A DNA stretch of 64,000 bases from positions 3,100,001 through 3,164,000 of the forward strand of contig NZ_LR215979.1 in assembly GCF_900683735.1 (NCBI RefSeq), given 5' to 3'. The position numbers were made by a program, and so were the translations under genes. The stretch is from Fusobacterium ulcerans ATCC 49185. GTDB lineage: Bacteria > Fusobacteriota > Fusobacteriia > Fusobacteriales > Fusobacteriaceae. The notes under the pieces are model-generated. The model did not search any database, was not told the origin of the DNA, and saw only the letters and a list, made by a program, of their open reading frames with translations. Shown in pieces: positions 15,447 to 53,060 of the stretch (position 1 is the first letter of the stretch; each line of letters starts with the position of its first letter).

Positions 15447-16880
15447 TTATTTGGTTTTTCTATTTTCCTTTACTTCACTTGCTATTTCTTCATATATACT
15501 TAATAATGTTTCTTTTTCTCCAACATTTCCTGGAAAAACTATATATGGTAGATCTGGATATTTACTTTCTTTTCCTGAAAGCCACACTGGAATCCCAGGA
15601 GCTAATTGCCCCAATACTTTTGCTTTTCTTATCCCTAAGCCTTTTGTAGCAGTATCACTTGATGTTATACCTCCTTTAGCTATAATAAAAGCAGGTCTTA
15701 TTTCTATATTTTTTATTATATCTATCAACCCATCAGATATTTTTGTTGCTATTTTTAATTGTTCATCCTCAGTTCCATTTGGAATATCTAATCTTTTTCT
15801 TTTTGTATAAATAACAATATCTTTTCCTTGAGAAATTATTTCTTCTGCCTTTTTTGTAACTCTTTCTATTTCTTTTTCAAATTTTTTATTATCTAATACC
15901 AAATGTTGATTAAACTCCAACTGTATTATTGAACTTTTTTTTAATTCTTCCAATTGCTCTGTTGTCTTAGTTACATGCGAACCTATTATTATTACTCCAC
16001 CATTTCTAGTCTTTAAATTCAAAATATCATCTCTAGTAAGCAATTCTCTTTCTTTACAAGCAGATAATACTTTTACCAACGAAGCTGCTCCTCTAATAAT
16101 ATATTCTTTCCCAAAATATATTGCTCTCAAAAAACATATTGCAAATATTTTTAAATCATAATAATTTACAGAATCTACAATTACTTTATTAAAAGTAGAA
16201 ACATTTAAAAGTTTCTTAGTTATTTCATCAATTTTCATCTCTCTAATGTCTTCAAGTTTTATCTTTACAGCTTTTTTCTCTTGAAATTTTCCTTTTGATT
16301 TCTCCTCACACCATTTTGCTAAATCAGAATTTTTATACAAAAAACTTTTATCTTTTGCAAATTCAGTTTCCCCTACAGGTATTAACTCTTCATTATTTAG
16401 TATATAATGAACCCCATCTATTGTTACTCTTTTTCCTTCAAAAAAAAACGGACATATTATTTCTCCATCTATTTTTCTATTAAGCTTATCTTCATATTCA
16501 GCTTTTAATGTTTCTGTCTCTATGGGATAGTGCCCTCTTAAAGTAGAATCTCCTCGACTATATATAAAAAAATTCTTTTCTTCACTCATTTCTATAATGG
16601 AGTCTATTATCTCTTTATGAACTGTTATTGTTTTTTCTTCAGAAAAACTTCTGGAATTAGTTAAAATAAAAAATAACCTATTATTTTCATTTATAGCTTC
16701 ACTTATTGTTTCTTTCTCCCAGTCACAATAAACCATGATATCATTTACTGTTTGAGTCCCAGTAGGATCATCATCTAAAACTATTATTTTTTTATCTAAT
16801 TTTTTCAACTCTATTTTTAATAATTCCTCAATTTCATTTTTTTGATCTTTAGTATATTCAAAATTTAATATTTCTTTCAT
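15447..16880 (-). CDS. Four-carbon acid sugar kinase family protein (DUF1537)
   Basis: A 477-residue ATP-dependent kinase of the family shown to phosphorylate D-threonate, D-erythronate and related acid sugars (DtnK/OtnK/DenK). The N-terminal domain has LDDDPTGTQT (35-44), LTNSRSF and SRGDSTLRGHYP; the C-terminal nucleotide domain has RGAASLVK, IIIGSH, AKGGITSSDTA and VFPGNVG. Length is typical. It ends an operon with the TTT transporter and an HpcH/HpaI aldolase, but no PdxA-type 4-phosphate dehydrogenase, the usual partner, is present here. The actual substrate therefore remains open. Confidence 0.9.
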   Translation of the reverse strand: MKEILNFEYTKDQKNEIEELLKIELKKLDKKIIVLDDDPTGTQTVNDIMVYCDWEKETISEAINENNRLFFILTNSRSFSEEKTITVHKEIIDSIIEMSEEKNFFIYSRGDSTLRGHYPIETETLKAEYEDKLNRKIDGEIICPFFFEGKRVTIDGVHYILNNEELIPVGETEFAKDKSFLYKNSDLAKWCEEKSKGKFQEKKAVKIKLEDIREMKIDEITKKLLNVSTFNKVIVDSVNYYDLKIFAICFLRAIYFGKEYIIRGAASLVKVLSACKERELLTRDDILNLKTRNGGVIIIGSHVTKTTEQLEELKKSSIIQLEFNQHLVLDNKKFEKEIERVTKKAEEIISQGKDIVIYTKRKRLDIPNGTEDEQLKIATKISDGLIDIIKNIEIRPAFIIAKGGITSSDTATKGLGIRKAKVLGQLAPGIPVWLSGKESKYPDLPYIVFPGNVGEKETLLSIYEEIASEVKENRKTK

Positions 16881-16894
16881 GTTCCCACTCCTTG

Positions 16895-18370
16895 CTATTC
16901 TTTAGCTTTCAATTCACTTTTTATTGACAGTACAACCATCATCAACGCTGCTAATAAAAATAATGCTGCTATCGGAGATTTCATAATTGGCATAAAAGAT
17001 CCTTCTGTTCTCATAAGAGATCGACGTATATTCTCTTCTAATAATGGTGAAAGAATAAATCCTACTACCAATGGGGCTAATGGGAATTTAAAATATTTCA
17101 TTATAAAACCTACTATTCCAAATGCTACCATAACTGTTATGTCAAATACTCTGTTATTAGCTGAAAATGCTCCTACATAGCAAAATGCTATTACTATTGG
17201 CAAAAGAAAAGCTGTAGGTACTTTCAATATTTTGGTAAATACTGGAAGTCCTAATTTTTCCAGTATTAGCATACATACATTTGCAAAAATAAAAGCTGCA
17301 AATAAGGCATATAAAAGTTCCCCATTTGTTTCAAAAAGCAATGGTCCTGGTGTCAATCCATGAATCTGAAATCCTGCTAAAATCATAGAAGTTGCATTAT
17401 CACCAGGAATTCCAAGAGTCAAAAGTATTATTAAAGCTCCACCTATTGTTGCATTATTTGCGGTTTCAGAAGCTATGAGTCCATCTATAAACCCTGTTCC
17501 AAATTTTTCAGGAGTTTTTGATCTTTTTTTACAATATGTATATGCCATTAAATTTGAAGCATTGCCTCCTATTCCTGGAAGTATTCCTATTACAAGACCA
17601 ATTATAGAAGCTGGAATAAAATTTTTCATCTGACCTAAAACTTCTTTAAATGAAATCCCAAATCCTTTTGTTGGAGTAACTATTGGTTGTTCTAGCCCTT
17701 TAGATTTTACAGTTGATTCTTCAATTATTTGAGAAACTGCAAACACTCCTATTAATAGAGGAATTAGATTAAATCCTGCTGCAAGGTTATCTATTCCAAA
17801 AGTATATCTTGTATATGAACTCAAAGTATCTATTCCAACAAAAGATAAAGAAATTCCAAATAGACACGAAATTAATCCTTTTACAATATTACCAGAAGAT
17901 AATCCTGAAACTGTTGTCAATGCAAAAAGAATAACAGCAAAATATTCATATGGTCCAAATTTCAATGCAAATCCTGCTATTACAGGTCCAAGAAATGTAA
18001 GAATTATTGCTCCAAATATTCCACCTAAAAAACTGAATAAGATTGCAATTCCTAGTGCTTTTCCTCCTTCTCCACGTTTGGTCATAGGATAACCATCAAA
18101 ACAAGTAGCAATAGAAGATGGTGTCCCTGGAATTCCAAGAAGAATAGCTGAAATCAATCCTCCTGAAAGTCCTCCTACATATATAGCTATTAAAAATGAA
18201 ATTCCATTTATAGGCTGCATTCCAAATGTTATTGGTAAAAATAATGCCAAAGCTGTAAAAGCTGATAACCCTGGAATAGCACCAAAAATTATTCCTACAA
18301 AAACTCCTCCTCCTATCAAGAATAAAGTTGTAAAACTAAATATATCAATAAAGCCATTTAATAATTCCAT
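16895..18370 (-). CDS. tctA: Tripartite tricarboxylate transporter large membrane subunit TctA
   Basis: A 491-residue multi-spanning permease. Family signatures are IFGAIPGLSAFTALALFLPITFGM near the N-terminus, LLGIPGTPSSIATCFDGYPM, and the mirrored GILPGIGGNASNLMAY and LLTLGIPGDNATSMILAGF in the second half. It imports carboxylates together with TctB and the periplasmic TctC using an ion gradient. It lies 9 bases after tctB and 14 bases before the sugar-acid kinase, which links uptake to phosphorylation of the same substrate. The ribosome site is AAGGAGG. Confidence 0.95.
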   Translation of the reverse strand: MELLNGFIDIFSFTTLFLIGGGVFVGIIFGAIPGLSAFTALALFLPITFGMQPINGISFLIAIYVGGLSGGLISAILLGIPGTPSSIATCFDGYPMTKRGEGGKALGIAILFSFLGGIFGAIILTFLGPVIAGFALKFGPYEYFAVILFALTTVSGLSSGNIVKGLISCLFGISLSFVGIDTLSSYTRYTFGIDNLAAGFNLIPLLIGVFAVSQIIEESTVKSKGLEQPIVTPTKGFGISFKEVLGQMKNFIPASIIGLVIGILPGIGGNASNLMAYTYCKKRSKTPEKFGTGFIDGLIASETANNATIGGALIILLTLGIPGDNATSMILAGFQIHGLTPGPLLFETNGELLYALFAAFIFANVCMLILEKLGLPVFTKILKVPTAFLLPIVIAFCYVGAFSANNRVFDITVMVAFGIVGFIMKYFKFPLAPLVVGFILSPLLEENIRRSLMRTEGSFMPIMKSPIAALFLLAALMMVVLSIKSELKAKE

Positions 18371-18379
18371 TCTACCTCC

Positions 18380-18853
18380 TTATCCTAATATTCCTGCTGG
18401 CAAAAATATTGAAAATACATTATAAAATAAAAGATATAAAAATATTGGTGTAATAATTGATACAAATCCTGTTATTACTATATATTTTTTATTGTTTAAA
18501 TATTCCTTTGGTAAGAGCAATAATATTTGTATAAATAAATAGAAAATAGTCAAAATTACAAATCCTACTATTTCTAACAATATTGCATATATAAGTAATA
18601 TAATCAAAGTCATAATCATTGATAATTTATTTTCAAAAATTTTTCCTGATTTTTCTTTGCTTTTAAATGAAACTACTATTAATATAAAAGATAAAATTCC
18701 CATAATAATAGAAACAAGTTGTGGAAAAAATCTTGGTCCCATTATATCCCCAACTGTTACATTTATCTTTAAAGATTGAGTATATATTATTATAGAAAAC
18801 AGTAGAAAAAATATTCCTGCTCCTAAGTCTTTGTAATTCATCTTTTTTTCCAT
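18380..18853 (-). CDS. tctB: Tripartite tricarboxylate transporter small membrane subunit TctB
   Basis: A 157-residue protein with four hydrophobic segments and the family start DLGAGIFFLLFSIIIYTQSLKI followed by GPRFFPQLVSIIMGILS. It is the poorly conserved small membrane component that pairs with TctA. Position between tctC and tctA is the standard gene order. An AAAGGAG site precedes the ATG. Confidence 0.9.
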   Translation of the reverse strand: MEKKMNYKDLGAGIFFLLFSIIIYTQSLKINVTVGDIMGPRFFPQLVSIIMGILSFILIVVSFKSKEKSGKIFENKLSMIMTLIILLIYAILLEIVGFVILTIFYLFIQILLLLPKEYLNNKKYIVITGFVSIITPIFLYLLFYNVFSIFLPAGILG

Positions 18854-18869
18854 GTATGTCTCCTTTATA

Positions 18870-18903
18870 AATATTGCTAAGAGAATTTTCTCTTAGCAAT
18901 ATT
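18870..18903 (-). promoter_or_regulatory. Intercistronic hairpin between tctC and tctB
   Basis: AATATTGCTAAGAGAA (18870-18885) and TTCTCTTAGCAATATT (18888-18903) are 16-base perfect arms. On the transcript it follows the binding-protein stop codon and precedes the tctB ribosome site, with no U run. Such hairpins typically stabilise the upstream message and raise binding-protein levels over membrane subunits. Confidence 0.8.
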
Positions 18904-18912
18904 ATTTATAAC

Positions 18913-19905
18913 TTATTTTTGTAAAAATTCATCTTTATATTTTTCTATATTCTCTTTATAAAATTTATTAGCAAAATTCTGTGCATCTTTCTTTCCAATA
19001 AATTTTACTGTTAAAAAATTCTCTTCCATAGTCTTTATATATTCTGGGTCCTTAGTCACTTTTTCTAAAGCATTTGCTAAGATATCTACAATTTCATCTG
19101 GAGTATCTGGATGAACCCCTAACCAGAAAAATTTACTGCAATCAATATTTTTAAGCCCATATTCTGAAGCTAGTGGAACATTTGGTAATAATGGATTCTT
19201 CTCTGAACCTAACAAAACCAATGCTTGAAATTTACCTTTTTCAAAATAATCTTTCGCTAATCCATATGTCAATACTGCTGAATCTGTCTGCCTTCCTAAT
19301 AATGCAGTTAATTTAGCTGCGTTATTACCTATATCCATAGGTTTAAATTTAGCATCCCACTCTTTATTCATTGCTATTCCATATATTTGATTAGCAGCTC
19401 CTATTTTCATTCCATATTCTATTTTATTAGGATTTAGTTTTGTTTTTTCAACTAAATCTTTTATATTTTTATATCCTGAAGCAGAATTAGTAACTAATAC
19501 AGTACAATTATCAAATAAAGGAATTCCAACTGTTTTAAATGAATCAAGTGTTATATCTGTTGTTCCCATTAAACTTGGAATATATAAGTCTAACCCATTA
19601 ATAACCATTGTATATCCATCTGGTTTTGAACTAAGTACTTGTTGCATTCCTATCATTGTAGCTCCACCATCTACATTTGTAACAACTACAGGTTTTTCCA
19701 AATATTTTTGCAAATATTTTGCTAAAACTCTAGTATTATAATCTGTATCTCCTCCAGCTTTTAAAGGAACTATAATTTGAATAGGCTTTTTAGGAAAATC
19801 TGTTGCTGCTTCTATTTTTTCTGTATTTCCTATTAATCCAATAACTGCCAAAGTCCCTGCCATTAATAATCCTAACTTTTTCTTAAGACTTGTCATTTTT
19901 CTCAC
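18913..19905 (-). CDS. tctC: Tripartite tricarboxylate transporter substrate-binding protein TctC (Bug family)
   Basis: A 330-residue periplasmic binding protein. It has a signal peptide (basic MRKMTSLKKK, then LGLLMAGTLAVIGLIG, cleaved near IEAA) and the mature start DFPKKPIQIIVPLKAGGDTD, the characteristic Bug-family beginning. Later motifs DGYTM, ADSAVLTYGLA and LPNVPLASEYG fit. The assigned start is GTG, 4 bases after AAAGGAG; the ATG three codons later is 13 bases away and less likely. It probably captures a small sugar acid for the downstream kinase/aldolase pathway. Confidence 0.92.
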   Translation of the reverse strand: MRKMTSLKKKLGLLMAGTLAVIGLIGNTEKIEAATDFPKKPIQIIVPLKAGGDTDYNTRVLAKYLQKYLEKPVVVTNVDGGATMIGMQQVLSSKPDGYTMVINGLDLYIPSLMGTTDITLDSFKTVGIPLFDNCTVLVTNSASGYKNIKDLVEKTKLNPNKIEYGMKIGAANQIYGIAMNKEWDAKFKPMDIGNNAAKLTALLGRQTDSAVLTYGLAKDYFEKGKFQALVLLGSEKNPLLPNVPLASEYGLKNIDCSKFFWLGVHPDTPDEIVDILANALEKVTKDPEYIKTMEENFLTVKFIGKKDAQNFANKFYKENIEKYKDEFLQK

Positions 19906-19917
19906 CTAACTCCTTTT

Positions 19918-20709
19918 TTATTTTCTGTAGCTTTCCTTAAATTTATTTACATTTTCCAAAGCTAATTTTCCAAGGGAAGTACTATCTGACATCATTACTA
20001 CCATATCATATCCTTTGTCATACAATTTTTTTGCTCCTTCAAAATCCCCTGCAACAGTTCCTATAAATTTATTTGTTTTAGCAACAACATCTTCTATCCT
20101 TTTCACTGCTGCCTTCACTTCATCTGCTTGTGGATTACAAAAATATCCCATTGACGTTGCCAGATCCATCGGTCCTACAAATATTCCATCTACACCTTCA
20201 ACTTTTACTATTTCTTCTATATTTTTTACTCCTTCAGCACTTTCAATCTGGATAAATATCAATATTTCCTCATTTGCTTTTTTTAAATAATTCATACTAT
20301 TCATTCCAAAATTTCCAGCTCGTGGACTTGGAGCAATTCCTCTCACTCCTTCAGTTGGATATTTACATGCTTTAACAGCATTTTCTGCATCCTCCTTACT
20401 CCCAATATATGGAACAATTACCCCATGTACTCCTGCATCCAATATTTTTTTAATTTGAACAAAATCATTCCAAGGAGTTCTTACAATAGGAGTTACCCCA
20501 TATTTTGATACAGCCTGCAATTGTTGTATTAATGTCATTATATCTCCTGGACCATGTTCCATATCTATTGACAGTACATCAAATCCTGATTTTGCCATTA
20601 TTTCTGCAGTAATATTACTTCCAGTTTGTAACCATCCAGCTGAAACCTTTTCTCCATTTTTCAACTTTCTTTTTGCTAAATTCAAAAATTCTTCATCCAT
20701 TTCCAGCAT
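19918..20709 (-). CDS. HpcH/HpaI family aldolase
   Basis: A 263-residue class II (metal-dependent) pyruvate aldolase. The substrate and metal segments are clear: SIDMEHGP, APSPRAGNFGMNS, FIQIESAEGVKNIEEI and the DGIFVGPMDLATSMGY motif with metal-binding acidic residues. Enzymes of this family cleave 2-keto-3-deoxy acid sugars to pyruvate and an aldehyde. I start it at 20709, where GAGGTG is well placed, instead of 15 codons upstream. It is the first gene of the transporter/kinase operon, so it probably acts on the imported acid or its phosphorylated, dehydrated derivative. Confidence 0.9.
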   Translation of the reverse strand: MLEMDEEFLNLAKRKLKNGEKVSAGWLQTGSNITAEIMAKSGFDVLSIDMEHGPGDIMTLIQQLQAVSKYGVTPIVRTPWNDFVQIKKILDAGVHGVIVPYIGSKEDAENAVKACKYPTEGVRGIAPSPRAGNFGMNSMNYLKKANEEILIFIQIESAEGVKNIEEIVKVEGVDGIFVGPMDLATSMGYFCNPQADEVKAAVKRIEDVVAKTNKFIGTVAGDFEGAKKLYDKGYDMVVMMSDSTSLGKLALENVNKFKESYRK

Positions 20710-20787
20710 ATCATTCACCTCTATTTTGAAATATTTCATATAATAATTAAACAATTCCTTCTTTTTAAATACATTTATTATATTTAA

Positions 20788-23763: not shown

Positions 23764-24447
23764 ATGAAAGGAATAATTGCAAAAAAAGAAAAAGCCAAAC
23801 TCCTTCCAATGCAAGTTATTGAAGAATTAAGACAAGTTATAATCACAAATAAACTTAAGCCAGGAGATACAATTCCAACTGAAAATGAATTAATAGAATC
23901 CCTTAATGTAAGTAAATCAAGTGTCAGAGAAGCCATAAAAATGCTTGAAGCTGTTGGAGTTGTTGAAATAAAAAGAGGATGTGGAACAATATTATCTGAA
24001 TCTAGCAGCAAAGGATTTGTAAATGTATTATTTTATCAACTTCTTATGCAAACTGGAACTAAAAAAGAACTTGCAAATTTTAGGAAAATGATTGAAATCG
24101 CTTATACTGAAATGGCTGCTCTAACTATTACAGCTATAGAAATAGAAGAGTTAGAAAAAAATTTAAGCGAATTTGAAGTAAAAGTATTAAACAAAGAAAC
24201 TTCTTCAGATGATGATATTCAATTTCATAGATTAATTTTAAGGGCAACACATAACAGTTTTATTATAAATTTAGGAGAAGCCATTTTTTCTTTATTTAAA
24301 GAAGGAATAGAAAAAGCTCTTGAAAAAAATGCCGTTCATGCATTAAATGATCATAGATTAATTTTAAAAGCTGTTAAAAATAAAAATATGGAAGACATAA
24401 GAAAATGTATAGAAAATAGTGTAGATACATGGATAGAGTTACTTTAA
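23764..24447 (+). CDS. GntR/FadR-subfamily transcriptional regulator
   Basis: A 227-residue regulator. The winged HTH is at about 15-80 (VIEELRQVIITNKLKPGDTIPTENELIESLNVSKSSVREAIKMLEAVGVVEIKRGCGT), followed by an all-helical FCD ligand domain (about 100-220) with the HRLILRATHN metal/ligand motif. ATG 23764 is chosen because GGAGG sits 5 bases before it. It is the first gene before the KARI-like, lyase-like and NhaC-like genes and probably controls them in response to an organic acid or amino acid. ATGTCTWA motifs near its own gene and near the next are candidate sites. Confidence 0.92.
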   Translation: MKGIIAKKEKAKLLPMQVIEELRQVIITNKLKPGDTIPTENELIESLNVSKSSVREAIKMLEAVGVVEIKRGCGTILSESSSKGFVNVLFYQLLMQTGTKKELANFRKMIEIAYTEMAALTITAIEIEELEKNLSEFEVKVLNKETSSDDDIQFHRLILRATHNSFIINLGEAIFSLFKEGIEKALEKNAVHALNDHRLILKAVKNKNMEDIRKCIENSVDTWIELL

Positions 24448-24472
24448 GATCTACAAAAATATTTTATTTTAG

Positions 24473-24522
24473 AAAATGCAGATTTATTTTGAAACAAAAA
24501 GCAAAATAAATTTGCATTTTTT
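24473..24522 (+). terminator. Terminator after the GntR gene
   Basis: AAAATGCAGATTTATTTTG (24473-24491) pairs with the complementary arm at 24502-24520, one unpaired position, then a T run. It separates regulator and enzyme transcripts. Confidence 0.85.
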
Positions 24523-24555
24523 ATATTTATATGATATAAATAAATCAGATATCAG

Positions 24556-24570
24556 ATGTCTTATGTCTTA
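24556..24570 (+). promoter_or_regulatory. Tandem ATGTCTTA motif, candidate GntR site
   Basis: Two ATGTCTTA copies share one base, 30 bases before the KARI-like ATG. ATGTCTA also occurs on both strands in the hairpin upstream of the GntR gene (23668-23674 and 23706-23712). Confidence 0.35.
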
Positions 24571-24599
24571 TTGAAATTATTTTATTACAGGAGGTAAAT

Positions 24600-25592
24600 A
24601 TGGGAAAAATTTATTATGACAATGATGGAAATATTGATGTAGTAAAGGATATGGTTGTTGCTATTATAGGATATGGTAATCAAGGAAGATCTCAGGCGCT
24701 TAATATGAGAGATTCTGGTATAAAAAATATAATCGTTGGAAGTATAAAAGACGATTCATGGGAAGCAGCAAACAATGATGGATTTAAAACTTATTCTATC
24801 TCTGAAGCATCTTCTAAAGCAGATATTTTATTTATTCTTTTACCAGATGAGGTTGCTCCTAAAATTTACAATGAAGAAATTGCTCCTAACTTAAAAGAGG
24901 GAACAACTCTTAATTTTTCATCAGGATATAATATAACATATGGCTATATAAAACCTGCTAGTAATCTTAATGTTATAATGGTTGCTCCTCGTATGATAGG
25001 AAAAGGAGTTAGAGAAACTTATCAGGCTGGTATTGGTTTCCCTACATTTGTTGTTGTTAATCAAGATGCAACAGGAAATGCAAAAGATATTGCTATTGGT
25101 TTAGCAAAAGCCTTAGGTTCTACCAAAGCTGGGGCTATTGAAGTTACTTTTAATGATGAAACTTATCTTGATCTTATGTCAGAACAGGGAGTATGGCCTC
25201 TTATCATGACTGTAATAGATCAAGCATTTAAACTTTATGTAGAAAAAGGACATTCCCCAGAAGCTGCATTAACAGAATTATATCTTTCAAAAGAGCCTAT
25301 GATTATGATGGAAAAAATGGCAGATATGGGATTATTTAAACAGCTTCCACTGCATTCAAGAACAAGTCAATATGGGCAAATTTCTAGATTCAAGCAAACA
25401 GATCCTACATATATCAGAGCATTTTTAGAAGAACAATATAATAAAATTGTTGATGGAGAATTTGCAAAAGAATGGGAATCTGAAATGAACAATAATCTTA
25501 AACATTTTGAAGAGTTAAAAAAAGAGGCTTTTGAAAGTTCTATAAGTATTGCTGAAACAGAAGTTAAGAAAAATCTTAGTGGGCAAAAATAA
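24600..25592 (+). CDS. Divergent ketol-acid reductoisomerase-like oxidoreductase
   Basis: A 330-residue homologue of class I KARI. The Rossmann domain is well kept (MGKIYYDNDGNIDVV, IIGYGNQGRSQALNMRDSG with GxGxxG at 24-29, LLPDEV, NEEIAPNLKEGTTLNF). The knotted C-terminal domain keeps D191 and E195 (DLMSEQ) and E226. But the catalytic HGFNIH is SSGYNIT (108-113), the APKGPGH lysine becomes arginine (APRMIGK, 129-135) and the second metal glutamate of E-x3-E is S230. It should still bind NAD(P)H but is unlikely to do the normal isomeroreduction. Neighbours are a lyase and a transporter, not other ilv genes. Confidence 0.85.
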   Translation: MGKIYYDNDGNIDVVKDMVVAIIGYGNQGRSQALNMRDSGIKNIIVGSIKDDSWEAANNDGFKTYSISEASSKADILFILLPDEVAPKIYNEEIAPNLKEGTTLNFSSGYNITYGYIKPASNLNVIMVAPRMIGKGVRETYQAGIGFPTFVVVNQDATGNAKDIAIGLAKALGSTKAGAIEVTFNDETYLDLMSEQGVWPLIMTVIDQAFKLYVEKGHSPEAALTELYLSKEPMIMMEKMADMGLFKQLPLHSRTSQYGQISRFKQTDPTYIRAFLEEQYNKIVDGEFAKEWESEMNNNLKHFEELKKEAFESSISIAETEVKKNLSGQK

Positions 25593-25631
25593 AACTTAAA
25601 GTGTAATTATTTTTTAAAGGAGGCTAAGTAT

Positions 25632-26849
25632 ATGAGTAAAATAGACTTGAATAAAGTTAGATTTTCCACTAAAGTGGTTCATGCTGGGCAAAGCTTTGAT
25701 CCTGAAACAGGTGCTCTCTCTACACCAATATATCAAACTTCTACTTTCTGCTTTGAAACTGTAGAAGAAGGAGCTGCAAAGTTTAGTAAAACTATTCCAG
25801 GATTCACATACACAAGAGGAGGAAACCCAACAACAAGAGCTCTTGAAGTAAAAATGGCAGCAATAGAAGGTGGAGAAGATTGTGTTGCAACAGCTTCAGG
25901 AATGGGAGCAGTGGGAGCAGTTATGATAGCTTTTTTAAAAGCTGGAGATCATGTTGTATGTGGTGATACCCTCTATGGTGGTACTTCTGTTGTCATGAGA
26001 ACAAATCTTGCTCAATTTGGCATAGATGTTACATTTGTTGATACCTCTGATTTAGAAGCAGTAAAAAAAGCCTTTACACCAAAAACAAAATTAGTATATT
26101 TTGAAACTCCAACTAATCCACTAATGACAGTTACAGACATAAAATCTATTTCAAAAATAGCCCATGAAAAAGAAGCACGTGTTGTAGTTGATAGTACATT
26201 TGCTCCTCCACCAATTCAATTTGCTCTTAAACTAGGAGCTGACTTGGTACTTCACAGTGTTACAAAGTATTTAAATGGACATGGTGATGTTTTAGGAGGT
26301 GTTGTCGTTGGAACTAAAGAAGATATTGCTCTTATAAGAGGAAATGGAGTTACAAAAATATGTGGAAATCCACCTAGTCCTTTTAATTCTTATCTTGTTT
26401 TAAGAGGATTAAAAACTTTAGTAATGAGAGTTGAAAAACACTGCCAAAATGCAATGGATTTAGCTAAATATCTTAAAACAGTTTCTGCTGTAAAAGAAGT
26501 ATATTATCCTGGACTTGAATCTAATCCATTCCATAAATTAGCAAAAGAACAAATGAATGGAATGTATACTGGTATTTTTTCATTTGAACTTAAAGAAAAT
26601 ATAAATGGTATGAACAGTTTTGAAGCAGGTAAAAAACTTGTAAATGGATTAAAAATAGCAACAATTGCTGTAAGTTTAGGAGATCCAGATACTTTAATTC
26701 AGCATCCTGCAAGTATGACTCATTCAAATGTACCTAAAGAAATAAGAGAAAAATCTGGTATTACTGATGGACTTATTCGTATCTCAGTAGGAGTAGAAGA
26801 TGTCGAAGATTTAATAGAAGATTTTGAACAAAGTTTTGCAAATTTATAA
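25632..26849 (+). CDS. PLP-dependent Cys/Met-metabolism enzyme (methionine gamma-lyase-like)
   Basis: A 405-residue fold-type I enzyme of the cystathionine gamma-synthase/lyase and methionine gamma-lyase family. Key parts are TYTRGGNPT (59-67), SGMGA phosphate loop (89-93), DTLYGGT with Tyr115, DSTFAPPP (187-194) and the PLP lysine in HSVTKYLNGHGD (K212). In true methionine gamma-lyases the residue two after the tyrosine is cysteine; here it is glycine (G117), so substrate use may differ. It starts 39 bases after the KARI-like gene with an AAGGAGG site, and clearly shares its operon. Confidence 0.92.
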   Translation: MSKIDLNKVRFSTKVVHAGQSFDPETGALSTPIYQTSTFCFETVEEGAAKFSKTIPGFTYTRGGNPTTRALEVKMAAIEGGEDCVATASGMGAVGAVMIAFLKAGDHVVCGDTLYGGTSVVMRTNLAQFGIDVTFVDTSDLEAVKKAFTPKTKLVYFETPTNPLMTVTDIKSISKIAHEKEARVVVDSTFAPPPIQFALKLGADLVLHSVTKYLNGHGDVLGGVVVGTKEDIALIRGNGVTKICGNPPSPFNSYLVLRGLKTLVMRVEKHCQNAMDLAKYLKTVSAVKEVYYPGLESNPFHKLAKEQMNGMYTGIFSFELKENINGMNSFEAGKKLVNGLKIATIAVSLGDPDTLIQHPASMTHSNVPKEIREKSGITDGLIRISVGVEDVEDLIEDFEQSFANL

Positions 26850-26902
26850 TTACTTAATTTAGAAATACTAACATTACCTAATTTAATAAAGGAGAGTGTT
26901 AT

Positions 26903-28279
26903 ATGGATGAAGGAAACAATAAAAAAGTAAAGCAAGACTATGGTATACTGGCATTTTTGCCTCTCTTTATATTTTTATTTATATATTTAGGAGCAGGTAT
27001 TTTATTCACTTATTTAGGAAAAGATTCTCCTTTCAAACAAATTCCAAGAGAAGCAGCACTTGTTGTAGGAGTTATAACAGCTCTTATTATGGGAAAAGAT
27101 AAACTTGACTATAAGGTTGATATTTTTGCTAAAAATGCAGGAGATCCAGGAGTAACATTGATGAGTTTAATCTTTCTTTTATCTGGAGCATTTGCAGGAA
27201 CTGCTAAAGCCATGGGCGGAGTGGATGCAACAGTTAATCTTGGATTAAGCCTTTGTCCTTTACAATTTATATTTGCTGGAATTTTTGCTATATCTGCCTT
27301 AATAGCCACTGCAATGGGAACATCTATGGGAACAATTGCTGCTATTGGACCTATTGCAATAGGAATAGCAGAGAAAGCTGATATTTCCTCTGCTGTGGCA
27401 ATAGCTGCAGTTATGGGTGGGGCAATGTTTGGAGATAATCTTTCTATTATATCAGATACAACAATAGCAGCTACAAGGGGAGCAGGATGCAAAATGAATG
27501 AAAAATTTAAAATGAATTTTTTAATTGCATTACCTGCTGCATTAGTTGCAATGTTGCTTTATAGTCTAATTGGAGTAAATGGAACTTTAGAAGGAAACTT
27601 TGAATATAGTTTTATAAAAATATTTCCTTACTTTGCTGTTATGCTCACTGCCATAATGGGGGTAAATGTTATAGTTGTCCTTTTATCAGGAACTATTATT
27701 TCTGGAATTATAGGAGTGTTTATTGGAACATTGAATATAGTAACTTTTGCTCAAGCTGTTACTAATGGAATGAGTGGAATGTTCAGCCTTGTTATCATAG
27801 CAATGCTTATAAGAGGACTGACAGGAATAGTAAAAGAATATGGAGGAATAGACTGGCTTATAAATATTTTACATAGAAGAATAAAATCAAGAAAAGGTGG
27901 TGAGTATGGAATTTCTGCTATTGTAGGTTTAATTGATGCTTCTTTGGCCAATAATACAATTGCAATAATAATTGCAGCCCCTTTGACTAAAACAATTGCT
28001 AAAATATACAATATAGCTCCAAAAAGAGTTGCAAGCCTTCTCGATATATTTAGCTGTGTTGTTCAAGGTATAATTCCTCATGGTGGACAGATGCTTCTTT
28101 GCTGTACTTTAACAGGATTATCTCCATTTACAGTTCTCAGTGCAAATTACTACCAATATGCTTTAGGAATAGCTGCAATAATAACAATTCAATTCGGTCT
28201 ATTAAAAACAAAAGAAGAAAAAGAAGGAATTCCTCTCTATACAGAAGATAGTGAAGTAGCAGAATTTGAATCTATTTAA
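26903..28279 (+). CDS. NhaC-family Na+/H+ antiporter-type transporter
   Basis: A 458-residue membrane protein with about 11-12 hydrophobic segments. The family motif region GTSMGTIAAIGPIAIGIAE and GAMFGDNLSIISDTTIAAT is intact. NhaC members include Na+/H+ antiporters and organic-acid exchangers (for example malate/lactate). Placement as last gene of an operon with two metabolic enzymes suggests that it moves their substrate or product rather than serving sodium homeostasis alone; this is inference. AAAGGAGAG precedes the ATG. A terminator follows. Confidence 0.9.
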   Translation: MDEGNNKKVKQDYGILAFLPLFIFLFIYLGAGILFTYLGKDSPFKQIPREAALVVGVITALIMGKDKLDYKVDIFAKNAGDPGVTLMSLIFLLSGAFAGTAKAMGGVDATVNLGLSLCPLQFIFAGIFAISALIATAMGTSMGTIAAIGPIAIGIAEKADISSAVAIAAVMGGAMFGDNLSIISDTTIAATRGAGCKMNEKFKMNFLIALPAALVAMLLYSLIGVNGTLEGNFEYSFIKIFPYFAVMLTAIMGVNVIVVLLSGTIISGIIGVFIGTLNIVTFAQAVTNGMSGMFSLVIIAMLIRGLTGIVKEYGGIDWLINILHRRIKSRKGGEYGISAIVGLIDASLANNTIAIIIAAPLTKTIAKIYNIAPKRVASLLDIFSCVVQGIIPHGGQMLLCCTLTGLSPFTVLSANYYQYALGIAAIITIQFGLLKTKEEKEGIPLYTEDSEVAEFESI

Positions 28280-38803: not shown

Positions 38804-38836
38804 AAAAATAAGAGTGGCATAGCCACCCTTATTTTT
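38804..38836 (-). terminator. Terminator of the sugar-acid operon
   Basis: AAAAATAAGAGTGGC (38804-38818) pairs with GCCACCCTTATTTTT (38822-38836), one mismatch; it overlaps the stop codon of the aldolase gene. Confidence 0.85.
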
Positions 38837-39731
38837 ATAGAAGTCCTGCTTCTTTCATCACTGCTTTTATTTGTTCAGTTTGTTCTTCAGTTGCTGGTAA
38901 GAAAGGTTTTGTACAATAATCTTTCATTTCCACTCCATGAAGTATCATAGCTTTTTTCATAATAGGAATAAATGGAGTTCCTATTGGATAAAGATCCATT
39001 AATTTATCTACTATCTTTTGAATTCTAGCAACTTCATCCATATTTTTTGCATTTATTGCTTTTACCCAATCAGCAAAAAGTTCTGGACATAAGTTTGAAA
39101 GCCCTCCAATACATCCACTTCCTCCACATAGAATATTGTGAACAAAGTTTTCATCAAATCCTGATAATACAATAAAATCTGGGAATTCTTTCAATACTGT
39201 AGTCATAAGTTTTCTAGTATGTCCCATTTCACTTACAGTATCTTTAAATCCAACTATATTTTTATGTTTTCTAAGAAGATTTAATGTAATTTCTGGAGTT
39301 AAGTCATGTCCTGTTCTATCAGGGAAGTTATATAAATATATATATCCTTTTACAGCTTCTGCTACTTTGTCATAGAAAAATTCTACACTTTCATCAGAAA
39401 GAGCAAAATAGTATGGACTGATAATCATTACTGCATCTGCTCCAGCTTCTATTGCAAAATTTGAAAGTTCAACTGTATCTTCAACTGTCATACAACTAGT
39501 TCCAATATATACCTTTGTTCTTTTATTTACATGCTCTACCACTAATTTAATAAGTTCTTTTTTCTGTTCAGTAGTCATAGAGAAAAATTCTCCTGTACTT
39601 CCCATAATTACAAGTCCATCTACTCCACCTTTAATAAGATGATCCCATACATTTTTATTAGCCTGAACATCCAGATTTCCGTTTGCATCAAATGCAGTCA
39701 CTACTGGAGTCAGAAAATTTGCTTTTTTCAT
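38835..39731 (-). CDS. Dihydrodipicolinate synthase-family aldolase/dehydratase
   Basis: A 298-residue class I TIM-barrel lyase (DapA/NanA/KdgA superfamily). Landmarks are the GSTGEFFSM phosphate-like loop, YNFPDRTG with the catalytic tyrosine, and the Schiff-base lysine in NIVGFKDTVSE. Family members act on pyruvate-derived keto acids: 2-keto-3-deoxygluconate, 4-hydroxy-2-oxoglutarate, N-acetylneuraminate. Its place in an operon with KDG-type permease, UxaA dehydratase and FAH hydrolase points to cleavage of a 2-keto-3-deoxy sugar acid, not lysine synthesis. Confidence 0.9.
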   Translation of the reverse strand: MKKANFLTPVVTAFDANGNLDVQANKNVWDHLIKGGVDGLVIMGSTGEFFSMTTEQKKELIKLVVEHVNKRTKVYIGTSCMTVEDTVELSNFAIEAGADAVMIISPYYFALSDESVEFFYDKVAEAVKGYIYLYNFPDRTGHDLTPEITLNLLRKHKNIVGFKDTVSEMGHTRKLMTTVLKEFPDFIVLSGFDENFVHNILCGGSGCIGGLSNLCPELFADWVKAINAKNMDEVARIQKIVDKLMDLYPIGTPFIPIMKKAMILHGVEMKDYCTKPFLPATEEQTEQIKAVMKEAGLL

Positions 39732-39763
39732 AATTAGTCTCCTTTTATATATTTAAAATAGTT

Positions 39764-40657
39764 TTATTCTATAGTATTGATAAGTTTTCCTATCTCTGGA
39801 ATTTCACAAGTTACTATATCTCCCTTTTTCATAAACCCTTGAGGTTTCATTCCCATTCCTACTCCAGATGGTGTTCCAGTTATTATTATATCTCCAGGTT
39901 CAAGAGTTATTCCTGCTGATATTTCAGATATTATTTGAGGAATATCAGCTAAAAATAATTTTGTATTTGAAGATTGTCTTAATTCATTATTAACATAACT
40001 TTTTACATCTACTTCTATTGGAAATGGAAGAGCTGTTTTATGCAGTATACTTGGTCCCATAGATGAATAAGTGTCCAGACTTTTACCCCTATACCATTGA
40101 AGATGAGATTGTTGCAACACTCTAGCAGATATATCATTGAATATTGAATATCCAAAAATATATTTTTCAACATCTTCTCTGGCTATATCTGTTCCCCTTT
40201 TTCCCATAATAACTGCCAATTCTACTTCATAATCTAAATGTGTATCCAAGTCCATTCTGCTTTTTACTGCATCTTCTGCTCCTATTATTTCAGAAGCTCT
40301 TTTTGAAAAATATACAGTTTTTGCTGGTTCAGTAAAATCATCCTTAAAACTTTCCTTTGTTTCTTCTAAATGATCTTTATAATTCACTCCCACACATATA
40401 ATATCGTGAATAGGTCTTTTAATTGGTGAACATATTTTTACTCTTGAAACATCATACTGAACAAACTCAGAAATCTTTCCCCCAAAAGTTTTCTGAAGCA
40501 GTTCTATTTCTTCTTCAGTGATATTTTCTATAAGATCAATCATTGAAGAAAATTTTCTGCCATTTAATACAGAAGATATCTCAATGATTTTTGATTCATC
40601 ATTATTGAAAATACCCAAATTCTCGTTGTTTTCATTTTTAAATCTTACAAATTTCAT
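39764..40657 (-). CDS. Fumarylacetoacetate hydrolase (FAH) family protein
   Basis: A 297-residue metal-dependent hydrolase/decarboxylase. The C-terminal FAH core has ICVGVNYKDHLEE, LDYEVELAVIMGKRGTDI (metal acid residues), GYSIFNDISARVLQ and GDIIITGTPSGVGMGMKP. Related enzymes split 2,4-diketo-3-deoxy acids (as in L-fucose and L-rhamnose oxidation) or acylpyruvates. Between the dehydratase and the aldolase it could act on a 2,4-diketo acid, though no dehydrogenase is encoded here to make one. Confidence 0.9.
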   Translation of the reverse strand: MKFVRFKNENNENLGIFNNDESKIIEISSVLNGRKFSSMIDLIENITEEEIELLQKTFGGKISEFVQYDVSRVKICSPIKRPIHDIICVGVNYKDHLEETKESFKDDFTEPAKTVYFSKRASEIIGAEDAVKSRMDLDTHLDYEVELAVIMGKRGTDIAREDVEKYIFGYSIFNDISARVLQQSHLQWYRGKSLDTYSSMGPSILHKTALPFPIEVDVKSYVNNELRQSSNTKLFLADIPQIISEISAGITLEPGDIIITGTPSGVGMGMKPQGFMKKGDIVTCEIPEIGKLINTIE

Positions 40658-40693
40658 TTTCCACCTTCTGAATTTTAGGCTTATATAAAGTCA

Positions 40694-40724
40694 GTAAGCA
40701 GAGAAATATTTTTTCTCCGCTCAC
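40694..40724 (-). promoter_or_regulatory. Intercistronic hairpin between uxaA-C and FAH genes
   Basis: GTAAGC-A-GAGAAA (40694-40706) pairs with TTTCTC-C-GCTCAC (40712-40724), with wobbles. No U run follows on the minus strand, so it looks like an mRNA stability or processing element. Confidence 0.6.
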
Positions 40725-40748
40725 TGTAACAATCTTTATATCTATATT

Positions 40749-41909
40749 CTATACATAATTACATAATCTTGCAATAGCCATTTCTGTATATCCTAAAGTT
40801 TCTGCTTTAGTTTGTTTTCCATTAGCTACTTCTACTAATTCTTGTAAGAATTCTTCTCCAAGTTCTTTTAATGTTTGTGGTCCATATATAACTGGGCTTG
40901 CATCTATATCAATATTATCTGACATATTTGCAAATGTTATTTTATTTCCAGTGATTTTAATTACTGGAGAAATAGGGTTTCCTGTAGGAGTTCCTCTACC
41001 TGTAGAGAATACTATAACTTGAGCTCCTCCAGCTACCATTCCTGCTACTGATGAAGGGTCATTTCCTGGAGTATCCATTACTACAAGACCTTTTTCCTCT
41101 ACCTGTTTTCCATAGTCATATACAGCTGTAACTTCTGTATGTCCTCCTTTATGGATACATCCAAGAGATTTTTCTTCAAGAGTAGTGATTCCTCCTGCTA
41201 TATTTCCTGGTGATGGATTTCCATCCCTTACTTCTTCTCCAACTAATTGAAGAGCTTTTTCATATCTATGTACAATTTCATATATTCTTTCTTTTATCTC
41301 TGGAGTTTTAGCACGAGCTGCAAGAATATGTTCTGCTCCTATAAATTCTGTAGTTTCAGAAAGAATAGAAGTAGCTCCAAGTGCTACTAAACGGTCACTT
41401 AGTTCTCCTATAAGTACATTTGATGCAAGACCACTTGTAGGATCTGATCCTCCACATTCAGTTCCAACTATCAATTCAGATATTGGAAATTCTTCTCTTT
41501 GAAGTCTTGAAGCTTCCTGTGCCATTTTTCTTCCAGCACGAACAGCTCTTTCTATTGTTGTTATAGTTCCACCATTTTCCTGAATGATGAATGTTTCCAT
41601 TGGTTTATTTGTTCTTTCTCTTATTGCATCTACAACTAAATCCATTTGGCAGTTTTCACATCCAAGAGAAACAACTATTATTCCATATACATTTGGGTTA
41701 GCTGCCATTCCAGCCATAACATCCATTGTAAGCTGTTGGTCTCCTGCTACTTGTGAACATCCATTTTGGTTGTTGAATGTAACTGCCCCTTCTATTTGAG
41801 AAGCTATTATTCTTGTAGTATCTGATGCACAAACACTTGCTGGTAAAATAAATATCTTGTTTCTTACTCCAACTCTTCCATCTGGTCTTCTATATCCTAA
41901 AAAATTCAT
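40749..41909 (-). CDS. UxaA family dehydratase, C-terminal (catalytic) subunit
   Basis: A 386-residue protein equal to the large domain of altronate/galactarate dehydratases: GYRRPDGRVGVRNKIFILPASVCASDTTRIIA, NNQNGCSQVAGDQQLT, GCENCQMD, VGTECGGSDPTSGLASN and FSTGRGTPTGNPISPVIKITGN. The enzyme uses Fe or an Fe-S site to remove water from a sugar acid, giving a 2-keto-3-deoxy acid. The SAF subunit is encoded separately just upstream. Ribosome site GGGAGG. Confidence 0.93.
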   Translation of the reverse strand: MNFLGYRRPDGRVGVRNKIFILPASVCASDTTRIIASQIEGAVTFNNQNGCSQVAGDQQLTMDVMAGMAANPNVYGIIVVSLGCENCQMDLVVDAIRERTNKPMETFIIQENGGTITTIERAVRAGRKMAQEASRLQREEFPISELIVGTECGGSDPTSGLASNVLIGELSDRLVALGATSILSETTEFIGAEHILAARAKTPEIKERIYEIVHRYEKALQLVGEEVRDGNPSPGNIAGGITTLEEKSLGCIHKGGHTEVTAVYDYGKQVEEKGLVVMDTPGNDPSSVAGMVAGGAQVIVFSTGRGTPTGNPISPVIKITGNKITFANMSDNIDIDASPVIYGPQTLKELGEEFLQELVEVANGKQTKAETLGYTEMAIARLCNYV

Positions 41910-41928
41910 ATTACATTTCCTCCCTATT

Positions 41929-42207
41929 CTATAAGTTCTCTCTGTGACTTTCTACATTATGAGTATGTACATGTGCACCAGCTTTTATATCTTCAGATGC
42001 AATTCCTATATGCTCTCCATATTTCACTACTGGCTCTCCTTTAGCTATATCTCTAGTTGCAAATTTATGATATATCTGAATATCTCCAAGAGCTGTAAGT
42101 GTTAAAACTTTATCTCCTGCTTTATAGCTTATTTCTGTTCCTTTAGCAATTTGTTCAATAGCTACTCCCACACTGTCTTTCACATCAATTATTAAAGCAT
42201 TGATCAT
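41929..42207 (-). CDS. UxaA family dehydratase, N-terminal SAF-domain subunit
   Basis: A 92-residue SAF domain with the family ending GEHIGIASEDIKAGAHVHTHNVESHRENL. In UxaA and GarD this is the N-terminal domain of one chain; here it is a separate small subunit, an arrangement known for other split UxaA-type hydro-lyases. Translated directly before the catalytic subunit (19-base gap). Confidence 0.92.
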   Translation of the reverse strand: MINALIIDVKDSVGVAIEQIAKGTEISYKAGDKVLTLTALGDIQIYHKFATRDIAKGEPVVKYGEHIGIASEDIKAGAHVHTHNVESHRENL

Positions 42208-42252
42208 AACATTCCTCCTTAAAGATTTTAGTATTCTATATTTTAAAAGTTT

Positions 42253-43230
42253 TTATTTTGCTGTTTCTAATTTTGCAGCTTCTAAAGCTTCTGATTGCGG
42301 ACATCCATATTTCTTTGCCCACCAGTTAGTCATCAATGGAACTAAGATAGCTGTAACTACTACTGATGCTGCTACTTGAGTAGTTGCTTCTCCTACATAT
42401 GGAGCCCAAGCTGGGTCTATAAGTCCTACTGCTGCTGGTACTGCAACTGCATTTCCAGCTGTTGTTGCAACTGCCCAACCTGCATATCCAGGTCTTCTTC
42501 CTATAATTTTATCACAAAAAACTATGAAGCATCCACCTACAAATACTGTTATAAGTCCTAAAATTATTCCTGGAACTCCACCTTTTACAACATTACTTAA
42601 GTTGATTCCAGCTCCAAGAGTAAGTCCAACAAATGGAATCAAAATATTTCCAGCTGGTTCTAGGAAAGTTTGCATTTCTTTGTCTAGGTTTCCAATTATC
42701 ATTCCAACTATAATAGGAATAACTGTTGCTACAAGTGCCATAAATGGAACATTTGCAAGTCCAGAAGCACCAAGAGCTATAAGTGTAAATAATGGTCCAT
42801 CATTAAGAGCCAAAAGAGCCATAGCAGCACAGTCAGTAGTATCTCCATAAGTTTTCATAAGAGCTAGATATACACTTCCATTACTGTTAGTTACTGCACT
42901 AATGATAGCTAATGTTGTAAGTCCGCATACTCCTGCAAAACCAAACATTTTTCCAACTGCTATACCAATAGCTGCTCCAATTATAAATTTAGAAATAAGA
43001 AGAATTCCTCCACGTTTTACCACTTTAGGCATATCTCTCAACTGTAAAGTAGTTCCAAGACAGAATAATTGTATCCCCATTGCTGTTGCTGCCCCTGCAC
43101 TAGAAAATGTTGCTGTTGTAAATGATCCTATTCTCAATGCTGCTGGGAAAAAAGTATTCATAAAAGCTCCTATTAGCAAAGGAACAATCATCATACCAGC
43201 AGGTACTCTTTTTAAAAACCTCATAATCAT
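42253..43230 (-). CDS. kdgT: 2-keto-3-deoxygluconate permease
   Basis: A 325-residue membrane protein of the KdgT family, which imports 2-keto-3-deoxygluconate by proton symport. It starts MRFLKRVPAGMMIVPLLIGAFMNTFFP, and contains FCLGTTLQLRDMPKVVKRGGILLISKF, SAVTNSNGSVYLALMKTYGD and TTAGNAVAVPAAVGLIDP, all typical. About ten hydrophobic segments. It is the first gene of the sugar-acid operon, controlled by the divergent IclR regulator through TGTATATACA sites. Confidence 0.93.
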   Translation of the reverse strand: MIMRFLKRVPAGMMIVPLLIGAFMNTFFPAALRIGSFTTATFSSAGAATAMGIQLFCLGTTLQLRDMPKVVKRGGILLISKFIIGAAIGIAVGKMFGFAGVCGLTTLAIISAVTNSNGSVYLALMKTYGDTTDCAAMALLALNDGPLFTLIALGASGLANVPFMALVATVIPIIVGMIIGNLDKEMQTFLEPAGNILIPFVGLTLGAGINLSNVVKGGVPGIILGLITVFVGGCFIVFCDKIIGRRPGYAGWAVATTAGNAVAVPAAVGLIDPAWAPYVGEATTQVAASVVVTAILVPLMTNWWAKKYGCPQSEALEAAKLETAK

Positions 43231-43376: not shown

Positions 43377-43490
43377 TATGTTCTATTAAAAAATTTTTAT
43401 CATTATTTTCAATCACCATTTTAAGCTGATTTTATAGAAAAAAAATTTTTTTACAGTTTAATTAATTATACTTTTTTATATGTATGCTTT

Positions 43491-43506
43491 GTCTGTATAT
43501 ACAAAC
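43491..43506. promoter_or_regulatory. IclR-type operator, regulator side
   Basis: GTCTGTATATACAAAC shares the TGTATATACA core with 43302-43315 and overlaps the -35 region of a promoter whose TATAAT is at 43521-43526. Suggests autoregulation. Confidence 0.65.
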
Positions 43507-43557
43507 TATTTAAAATCTGGTATAATCAAATTATTAATATTTAGGAGGTGCCTTTTC

Positions 43558-44346
43558 ATGGCAAAGACTGAACATAGACCTACAGCCCGTGTACTTAACA
43601 TACTTGAACTGCTAGCTGCCAATCAAGAAGGTCTGACTTTGACAGAAATCGCTGAAGCTATTGATGCACCTAAAAGCAGTATACTGCCTTTAATTCATAC
43701 TATGGCTCAACGTAAATTTATATTTTTAGATGTACATACTTATAAGTATAGTATAGGTATAGGTTCTTTTTGTGTTGGATCAGCTTATACAAGCAACATG
43801 AATGCTCTTCAATTTATAAAATCAGAGATGAAATATATTGTGAAAAAAACTAATGAAATCTGCCAAATGGGTATATTTGATAGAGGACAGGTATTATATG
43901 TGGCAAAAGTAGATTCTGATGATCCTATTCGTATTATCTCATATGTAGGAAAAAGGCTTCCTGCTTATTGTACTGCTCTAGGTAAAGCTTTGCTCTGCCA
44001 GAAAAATATCAAAGAATTAAAAGAACTCTACCCAAATGGATTAAAAAAATATACTCCTAATACCATAACTGACTTTGAGATACTTGCAGATCAGCTTAAA
44101 GAAGTAAAACAAACTATGATTGCTACTGAAAACGGAGAAGTAAATGAACAATCTGATTGTATCAGTGTCCCTCTTTTTAAAGGAGATGACATCCTTGCTG
44201 CTATCAGTGTAAGTGTTCCTTCTTTTAGAATGACAGAAGAGAAAACTGAACTTATTAAATCAATGCTTTTAGAAACTAAAACTAAAATTGAAACTTTTTT
44301 TCGAGAACATGATATAGATAGTACTCAGTTAACACTTTCTAACTAG
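43558..44346 (+). CDS. IclR family transcriptional regulator
   Basis: A 262-residue regulator with an N-terminal wHTH (RVLNILELLAANQEGLTLTEIAEAIDAPKSSILPLIHTM) and a C-terminal GAF-like effector domain (YVGKRLPAYCTALGKALLC, ISVPLFKGDDILAAISVSVP). The KdgR branch of IclR responds to 2-keto-3-deoxygluconate. It is divergent from kdgT. ATG 43558 follows AGGAGGTG; the longer frame begins inside the operator and promoter and is not credible. MBL and LUD genes follow on the same strand. Confidence 0.93.
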   Translation: MAKTEHRPTARVLNILELLAANQEGLTLTEIAEAIDAPKSSILPLIHTMAQRKFIFLDVHTYKYSIGIGSFCVGSAYTSNMNALQFIKSEMKYIVKKTNEICQMGIFDRGQVLYVAKVDSDDPIRIISYVGKRLPAYCTALGKALLCQKNIKELKELYPNGLKKYTPNTITDFEILADQLKEVKQTMIATENGEVNEQSDCISVPLFKGDDILAAISVSVPSFRMTEEKTELIKSMLLETKTKIETFFREHDIDSTQLTLSN

Positions 44347-52184: not shown

Positions 52185-53060
52185 TTAAAATCTATACATT
52201 AGATTTACTCCATATCTAGTTGCATCTACACTTCCTTCTTGTCTTGTTACTTCAAATCCTATGCTGTGTCCTTCTCTTGTCTCATATTTCAGCTCTGCAC
52301 CTATTTTTATTATATCTTTTACTTTCTTAGGTTTTTCCAAGTCATAGTATCCTGCATCTGTATTTTTAATTTTCGCCTTATTTGCTCCATCATATACTTT
52401 CCCCAGTTCATACTCTGCTGTTGCCTTTCCTATCAGACTATATTTTCCTGACTGCGCATATTTGTTGAAAGCTATATCTGCTCCTACTCCTGGTCTTACT
52501 ATGTACATATCTTTTGATTCTATATCCAGTTCTATTCCATCTCCACTTTCTTTGAAATCTTCAAACTTTCCATATCCTAAGTTGAATGTTCCAAATAATC
52601 CTATATTTATCTTTTCACTATCCAATGGAATATCATATCTTAGTTTATTTTTCCATTCTACTGTTCCTGACCAGAATTTTCCTGTATTCTCATATGTTCC
52701 ACTGCTTAAGTGTATCTTTCTGTCTGTTTCATGATGATTTACACTTATCTCTCCTCTTGTGTAGTATTTCAGATTCTTGCTGTCTTTTATGTAGTCTTCA
52801 AATCCTACTCCTGCATTCAGTGAGTAAACTGTTTCTTTTGATCCAGGATCAAAATCAAATTTAGTCTGTGTAAATCCTACACTCCAGTTAGATACTCTTC
52901 CATATTTCATATGATCATACTCTTTTAATATCATTGTTCCAAGAGATTTAGATTCATAATCTTCAACCCCTGCTCTTCTGCTCTTTGTTTCTCCTCCAGT
53001 CATGATAGCTCCTATTTTAAGAGTTTCTCTTGAATAAAGTCTGTTGTTTCTCAGATTTTC
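52185..53060 (-). other. C-terminal beta-barrel domain of the giant autotransporter
   Basis: Alternating hydrophobic strands beginning near LRNNRLYSRETLKIGAIMTG and closing with EVTRQEGSVDATRYGVNLM and terminal YRF, the translocation and membrane anchor unit. Confidence 0.85.

Follow-up and report, generated by a model that had tools for sequence, protein, structure and literature searches.

A ketol-acid reductoisomerase-like gene in a putative catabolic operon of Fusobacterium ulcerans, and its operator-like element, which also precedes PLP enzyme genes in Oscillospiraceae

We analyzed a four-gene locus in a stretch of 64,000 nucleotides of the Fusobacterium ulcerans ATCC 49185 genome (contig NZ_LR215979.1, positions 3,100,001 to 3,164,000; hereafter, the window), in which a gene resembling ketol-acid reductoisomerase (KARI, IlvC) lies between the gene of a GntR-type regulator and the genes of a pyridoxal phosphate (PLP)-dependent enzyme and an NhaC-type transporter. 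The KARI-like protein is probably an NAD-type relative of IlvC that functions outside amino acid biosynthesis, in the breakdown of a hydroxy or amino acid. The strongest evidence that it acts in one pathway with the PLP enzyme is an operator-like element, ATCAGATRTCNKATRTC, shared by the two genes. For the locus as a whole the best explanation, to which we give an even chance, is an inducible catabolic operon, in which an NAD(H)- and Mg2+-dependent oxidoreductase of 2-oxo or 2,3-dihydroxy acids works together with a PLP lyase.

Results

An operator-like element shared by the KARI-like and PLP genes

At 24544..24567 (+ strand), 33-56 bases before the ATG of the KARI-like gene, ATCAGATRTCNKATRTC occurs in two exact copies that overlap; together they form a probable GntR operator. 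A whole-genome search with a closely similar pattern found no further site with fewer than two mismatches. In 13 further loci, all containing an orthologue of the GntR gene, the core CAGATRTC was found 35-131 bases before the KARI-like gene, and it is missing from close loci without this orthologue; in about 15 related loci, a GntR orthologue lies next to the KARI-like gene. Because the element and the GntR orthologue co-occur, the regulator is likely to bind ATCAGATRTCNKATRTC.

In five Oscillospiraceae genomes (L040, L042, L045, L046 and L133) the PLP gene is transcribed separately from the KARI-like gene, and in all five the same type of element, with zero to two mismatches, precedes the PLP gene by 30-50 bases. 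An NhaC gene follows the PLP gene in four of them, while L045 has no NhaC gene nearby. The element is absent before PLP paralogues, and matches at positions other than upstream of KARI-like or PLP genes are uncommon in these loci. Sharing this element, the KARI-like and PLP genes look like one regulon.

All ten genomes that carry a member of the close KARI subclade (identity of 63-73%; nine genomes and L049) have an orthologue of the PLP enzyme (57-70% identity), whereas in other genomes, with KARI identity of at most 64%, the PLP relatives reach at best 42%, with one exception at 53%. The PLP and NhaC genes adjoin in several genomes, and in L049 the PLP, NhaC and KARI-like genes stand in a row as a colinear operon. 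In L118, a PLP gene (43%) lies beside the GntR and KARI-like genes without the operator-like element, and this adjacency is weak support for the link. Together with the element before both genes, this co-occurrence supports the proposal of the initial annotation that the PLP enzyme and the NhaC-type transporter work with the KARI-like enzyme under control of an FCD-type GntR regulator.

A distinct clade of KARI relatives

The KARI-like gene (24600..25592, + strand) encodes an oxidoreductase of 330 amino acids, assigned to the BurG/Sso-type subfamily, with KARI_N (203.5 bits) and KARI_C (90 bits) domains above the Pfam cut-offs. It scored 263 bits against TIGR00465 (cut-off 226) and 287 bits against PRK05479 (cut-off 336). 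In a tree of 75 rows, 57 variant and 18 canonical KARIs, the variants, including the Sso-KARI of Saccharolobus solfataricus, were separated from the canonical KARIs with SH-aLRT support of 100. A phylogeny of IlvC homologues, proposed in the initial annotation as a check for a separate clade, thus placed the KARI-like protein in a distinct clade paralogous to IlvC. In a second tree the NAD+-dependent enzyme BurG (7PCC), entered as two sequence segments, fell inside the variants with support of 97 for a grouping with Acidobacteria, Chloroflexi and Armatimonadota rows, on a long branch whose exact place is unsure.

The structural matches listed for an AlphaFold2 model of the KARI-like protein (pLDDT 96) are all KARIs, with BurG, Sso-KARI and others tied at Z of about 38. 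One scan yielded at least 565 confirmed relatives. Among the matches listed, the nearest ones (70-73% identity) come from Clostridia, which suggests lateral acquisition; of eleven other genomes of the same genus, ten had no match and one had a canonical KARI.

Active-site residues of the KARI-like protein

Residues were compared between 100 variant rows, some of them repeat copies of one gene, and 47 canonical KARI rows. In the KARI-like protein, HGFNIH is replaced by SGYNIT (S108, T113) and APKGPG by APRMIG (R131), the corresponding variant motifs being [SH][GA]YN for HGFN and APRM; position 131 is Arg in 99 of the 100 variant rows and Lys in all 47 canonical ones. D191, E195 and E226 are retained. 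All this agrees with the initial annotation, which had listed Ser and Thr for both histidines, Arg for the lysine and the three acidic residues as kept. It had further read Ser for the second glutamate of E-x3-E, implying that metal binding was affected. This reading was rejected: Ser230 is an artefact of an ungapped alignment, as a two-residue insertion in the variant clade turns E-x3-E into E-x5-E, and the second Glu is found at E232 in 100 of 100 variant rows. The full set of ligands for two Mg2+ ions (Asp, Glu, Glu, Glu) is therefore present by sequence as D191, E195, E226 and E232, and the metal site is predicted to be intact, not lost; Sso-KARI, with the same substitutions, has been solved with Mg2+.

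Two further positions, overlooked in the initial annotation, set the variants apart. H252 was gained in 99 of the 100 variant rows, whereas canonical KARIs have Ile or Val there, and D51 stands in place of the NADP-phosphate-binding Ser, also in 99 rows. With S48 and D51, the KARI-like protein has the NAD-type loop (Asn or Ser at 48 and Asp at 51), which in BurG excludes the NADP phosphate. The conservation of the substitutions across archaea and bacteria indicates that they are not due to chance; the altered residues reflect the known remodelling of a branch with solved structures.

Comparison with characterized enzymes

With class I IlvC (EC 1.1.1.86) the KARI-like protein shares the fold, the Rossmann and knot domains, and D191/E195/E226 with the second Glu. 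It differs in the replacement of the His/His/Lys set, the gain of His252, the change of the NADPH-loop Ser to Asp51, the two-residue insertion and the lack of an ilv context.

BurG is the NAD+-dependent cyclopropanol synthase of malleicyprol biosynthesis (PDB 7PCC-7PCT), in which Asn48 and Asp51 exclude the NADP phosphate and E232 is the catalytic base at the beta-carbon; it converts hydroxypyruvate to glycerate with NADH, not NADPH (PMC9359912). More generally, KARIs that prefer NADH are recognizable by acidic residues at the phosphate position (PMC5940873). BurG belongs to the same clade and shares with the KARI-like protein the NAD-type loop with Asp51, E-x5-E with E232, Met132 and the two-Mg2+ site. 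It acts on a 2,3-dihydroxy acid, and the substrate class proposed for the KARI-like enzyme is similar. BurG differs by Tyr133, which contacts the sulfonium group, and a sulfonium pocket, whereas the KARI-like protein has Ile133, and it lacks the His252 of the KARI-like protein. The contexts differ as well: BurG belongs to a polyketide/gonydiol cluster, while the KARI-like gene stands in a catabolic context with a PLP lyase and a transporter, and no gonydiol or polyketide genes adjoin the operon. On a Rhizobium lusitanum plasmid (L038, 6001-7541) a BurG-like gene near a polyketide synthase is annotated as two ORFs.

The 'putative ketol-acid reductoisomerase 2' of S. solfataricus (Sso-KARI; PDB 6JCV, 6JCZ, 6JD1 and 6JD2) has, according to the PDB titles, been solved in complexes that contain Mg2+, NADH or NADPH, and CPD, an inhibitor of KARI. 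It is about 40% identical to the KARI-like protein and shares its clade and the motifs SGYN, APRM, E-x5-E and HS-x-TSQYG; it differs by its deep archaeal branch and its deposition as a KARI. It has reportedly been studied as such.

No usual route of branched-chain amino acid synthesis

The window genome, which is complete, consists of one contig of 3.84 Mb and encodes a single KARI. No TPP_enzyme_N protein was found in it and, therefore, it has no acetolactate synthase; the neighbors of its sole IlvD-family gene are genes for a permease and a GntR regulator. As there is neither an acetolactate synthase nor another KARI, the KARI-like gene does not serve branched-chain amino acid (BCAA) synthesis by the usual route, and a plain BCAA role was rejected. 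Among 28 genomes with the variant, 16 also carry a canonical KARI, and in nine loci from genomes with both types the canonical gene stands next to ilvB or ilvD. The other 12 genomes, including the window genome, have the variant only; several of these are draft assemblies. These observations support the view, put forward in the initial annotation, of a reductase-like KARI relative outside BCAA synthesis. The only variant locus with ilvB is archaeal: in an uncultured archaeon (L072, 8001-13256) a variant KARI, an acetolactate synthase and a canonical KARI lie close together, a possible intermediate case.

The other genes of the locus

The four ORFs lie on the + strand, at the coordinates of the initial annotation, and each has a good Shine-Dalgarno sequence. 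The gaps along the GntR, KARI-like, PLP and NhaC-like genes are 152, 39 and 53 bases, and no terminator-like sites were found between the genes on the + strand. The domains and ORF boundaries agree with the identities assigned earlier to all four products.

The FCD-type GntR regulator (23764..24447, + strand; 227 amino acids) has PF00392 (66 bits) and PF07729 (53 bits) domains, both above the Pfam cut-offs. Its longest ORF starts at 23719; the ATG at 23764 is the better start, being preceded by GGAGG (GGAGGAAAA-ATG).

The third gene (25632..26849, + strand) encodes a Cys/Met-metabolism PLP enzyme of 405 amino acids (PF01053, Cys_Met_Meta_PP, 476 bits, above the Pfam cut-off) resembling methionine gamma-lyase (MGL). 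It has the fold, the Schiff-base lysine (Lys212), Tyr115 and the carboxylate-binding motifs of the MGL/cystathionine gamma-lyase family (5DX5, 4MKK, TIGR01328). Its best PDB relatives are MGLs, with which it shares about half of its residues. It differs from them by Gly117 in place of the active-site Cys, Thr241 and Lys242 in place of Lys-Asp, and a PPSPFN loop, and it falls below the MGL equivalog cut-offs (478.4 bits against TIGR01328, cut-off 549.7). Gly117 and the TK loop with PP[SA]PFN are common to the operon-type orthologues, while paralogues have Cys at position 117. The deviation from MGL seen in the initial annotation is thus real, but Gly117 marks a subgroup and is not a defect.

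The NhaC-superfamily transporter (26903..28279, + strand; 458 amino acids) passes the Pfam cut-off for the superfamily domain PF03553 (Na_H_antiporter) alone; against the NhaC equivalog TIGR00931 it scores 70 bits, far below the cut-off of 370.

Gene neighborhoods and other observations

The neighbors of KARI-like relatives include a GntP permease, glycerate kinase (L046 and L035), LarA and a galactarate-type dehydratase (Oscillospiraceae), enolase-superfamily genes (haloarchaea) and acid-sugar kinases, among them a D-threonate-kinase-like gene in Halanaerobium. The permease, the kinases, LarA and the dehydratase point to C3-C6 hydroxy or sugar acids as substrates. LarA is absent from the window genome and, therefore, is not a required partner. 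D-apionate oxidoisomerase was also considered, but this activity is not specifically indicated by the transporter and PLP context.

In L039 (4642-7947), L041 and L043, genes for a glycyl radical enzyme and its activase immediately precede a KARI-like gene of 72% identity. The radical enzyme was set aside as a substrate clue, as it could not be assigned (GCIQP versus GCxEP of diol dehydratases). In L130 (1063-2541) and L131 (4434-5912) a gene resembling, by eye, 4-hydroxybutyryl-CoA dehydratase lies beside the LarA, dehydratase and PLP genes and is followed by an aminotransferase-like gene.

Elsewhere in the window, the genes at 38835-43230 (- strand) and 43480-44346 (+ strand) encode a DHDPS-type aldolase, an FAH hydrolase, a galactarate/altronate-type dehydratase, a KdgT permease and an IclR regulator; this set is a keto-deoxy sugar acid operon. 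Its dehydratase shows 44% identity to one beside the PLP gene in Oscillospiraceae. At 15447-20754 (- strand), in another sugar-acid operon near the four-gene locus, an HpaI/GarL-type aldolase and an acid-sugar kinase (SBD_N/NBD_C) flank three ORFs whose sizes suggest a putative tripartite tricarboxylate-type transporter. An ORF of 3618 residues occupies 52185-63041 (- strand).

Discussion

In the proposed catabolic operon, the NhaC-type transporter would import an amino acid or exchange it for an acid product, and the PLP enzyme would eliminate ammonia and a beta or gamma leaving group to yield a 2-oxo acid. The KARI-like enzyme would interconvert a 2-oxo (or 2-oxo-3-hydroxy) acid and a 2-hydroxy (or 2,3-dihydroxy) acid with NAD(H), accepting or supplying the 2-oxo acid of the PLP enzyme, either direction being possible. 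Catalysis would proceed on a two-Mg2+ centre formed by D191 and E195 with E226 and E232 from the partner subunit, and E232 may, like its counterpart in BurG, handle the proton of the beta-carbon. The FCD-GntR protein would sense an acid of the pathway and bind ATCAGATRTCNKATRTC upstream of the KARI-like gene. Analogy with BurG and Sso-KARI suggests the cofactor, metals and reaction class; the transport and the direction are those that we infer for the operon.

Several points weigh against this model. The role of the close KARI subclade is a prediction, and no simple product of the PLP enzyme is an obvious 2-oxo-3-hydroxy acid. BurG, placed on a long branch, has only about one third of its residues in common with the KARI-like protein, while the deposition of Sso-KARI as a KARI means that acetohydroxy-acid isomerization may still be within reach of the clade. 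Furthermore, many wider relatives keep the GntR and KARI-like genes without the PLP gene, so that the PLP enzyme is not needed for the core reaction.

The absence of the PLP gene from these relatives would also fit functionally unrelated KARI-like and PLP-NhaC genes, brought together by chance or by general carbon control, as would the PLP-NhaC paralogue pairs that exist without a KARI-like gene; the operator-like element, placed before the separately transcribed PLP genes of all five Oscillospiraceae genomes and not before PLP paralogues, and the colinear operon of L049 make this improbable. We give equally little credence to a working ketol-acid reductoisomerase acting on a substrate that is produced extracellularly or by an unrecognized enzyme. 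Such an activity would agree with the TIGR00465 score above the cut-off, with the variant near acetolactate synthase in L072 and with Sso-KARI, which, sharing clade and substitutions and deposited with Mg2+, NAD(P)H and CPD, may already in part be the KARI-active homologue that, according to the initial annotation, would speak against a new function. It is at odds with the absence from the complete genome of any protein of the acetolactate synthase family, the lack of ilv neighbors, and the many genomes that keep a separate canonical KARI beside ilvB or ilvD.

The main alternative, unlikely in our view, is a concealed redox reaction of the BurG type: NAD+ would oxidize C2 of a 2,3-dihydroxy acid, E232 would deprotonate C3, and epimerization or loss of a leaving group would be followed by re-reduction. 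An example would be a tetronate C3 epimerase that feeds the LarA and galactarate-type dehydratase steps of Oscillospiraceae and is connected to the PLP lyase through 4-hydroxy-2-oxobutyrate/homoserine. E232, D51 and the two-Mg2+ ligands match those of BurG, the LarA, UxaA-type and PLP genes adjoin one another in several relatives, and D-threonate-kinase-like and glycerate kinase genes are among the neighbors; however, Ile133 replaces the sulfonium-contacting Tyr133 of BurG, the window genome has no LarA, and the number of carbons assumed for the substrate is a guess.

In summary, the conserved operator-like ATCAGATRTCNKATRTC shared by the KARI-like and PLP genes is new, whereas the remodelled KARI residues are already known from a branch with solved structures. 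The undescribed neofunctionalization proposed in the initial annotation stands for the operon setting, which is undescribed, but less so for the enzyme, as BurG, a characterized relative, shares its NAD-type loop and catalytic Glu. A broader scheme may be offered tentatively, although the odds are rather against it: a widespread NAD-type KARI branch would serve hydroxy- or sugar-acid catabolism in both bacteria and archaea, and gut anaerobes would have added a PLP lyase, creating an undescribed pathway with BurG-like enolizing redox chemistry (epimerization, elimination or oxidoisomerization) on the product or substrate of the lyase.

Hundreds of such genes are likely auto-annotated as ketol-acid reductoisomerases, the name carried by most of the plasmid copies examined, and genomes with only the variant type could be wrongly scored as BCAA producers. 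The motifs D51, APRM, E-x5-E and HS-x-TSQYG separate the variant from canonical KARIs, and the shared operator-like element makes discovery of the substrate testable via the inducer of the GntR regulator.

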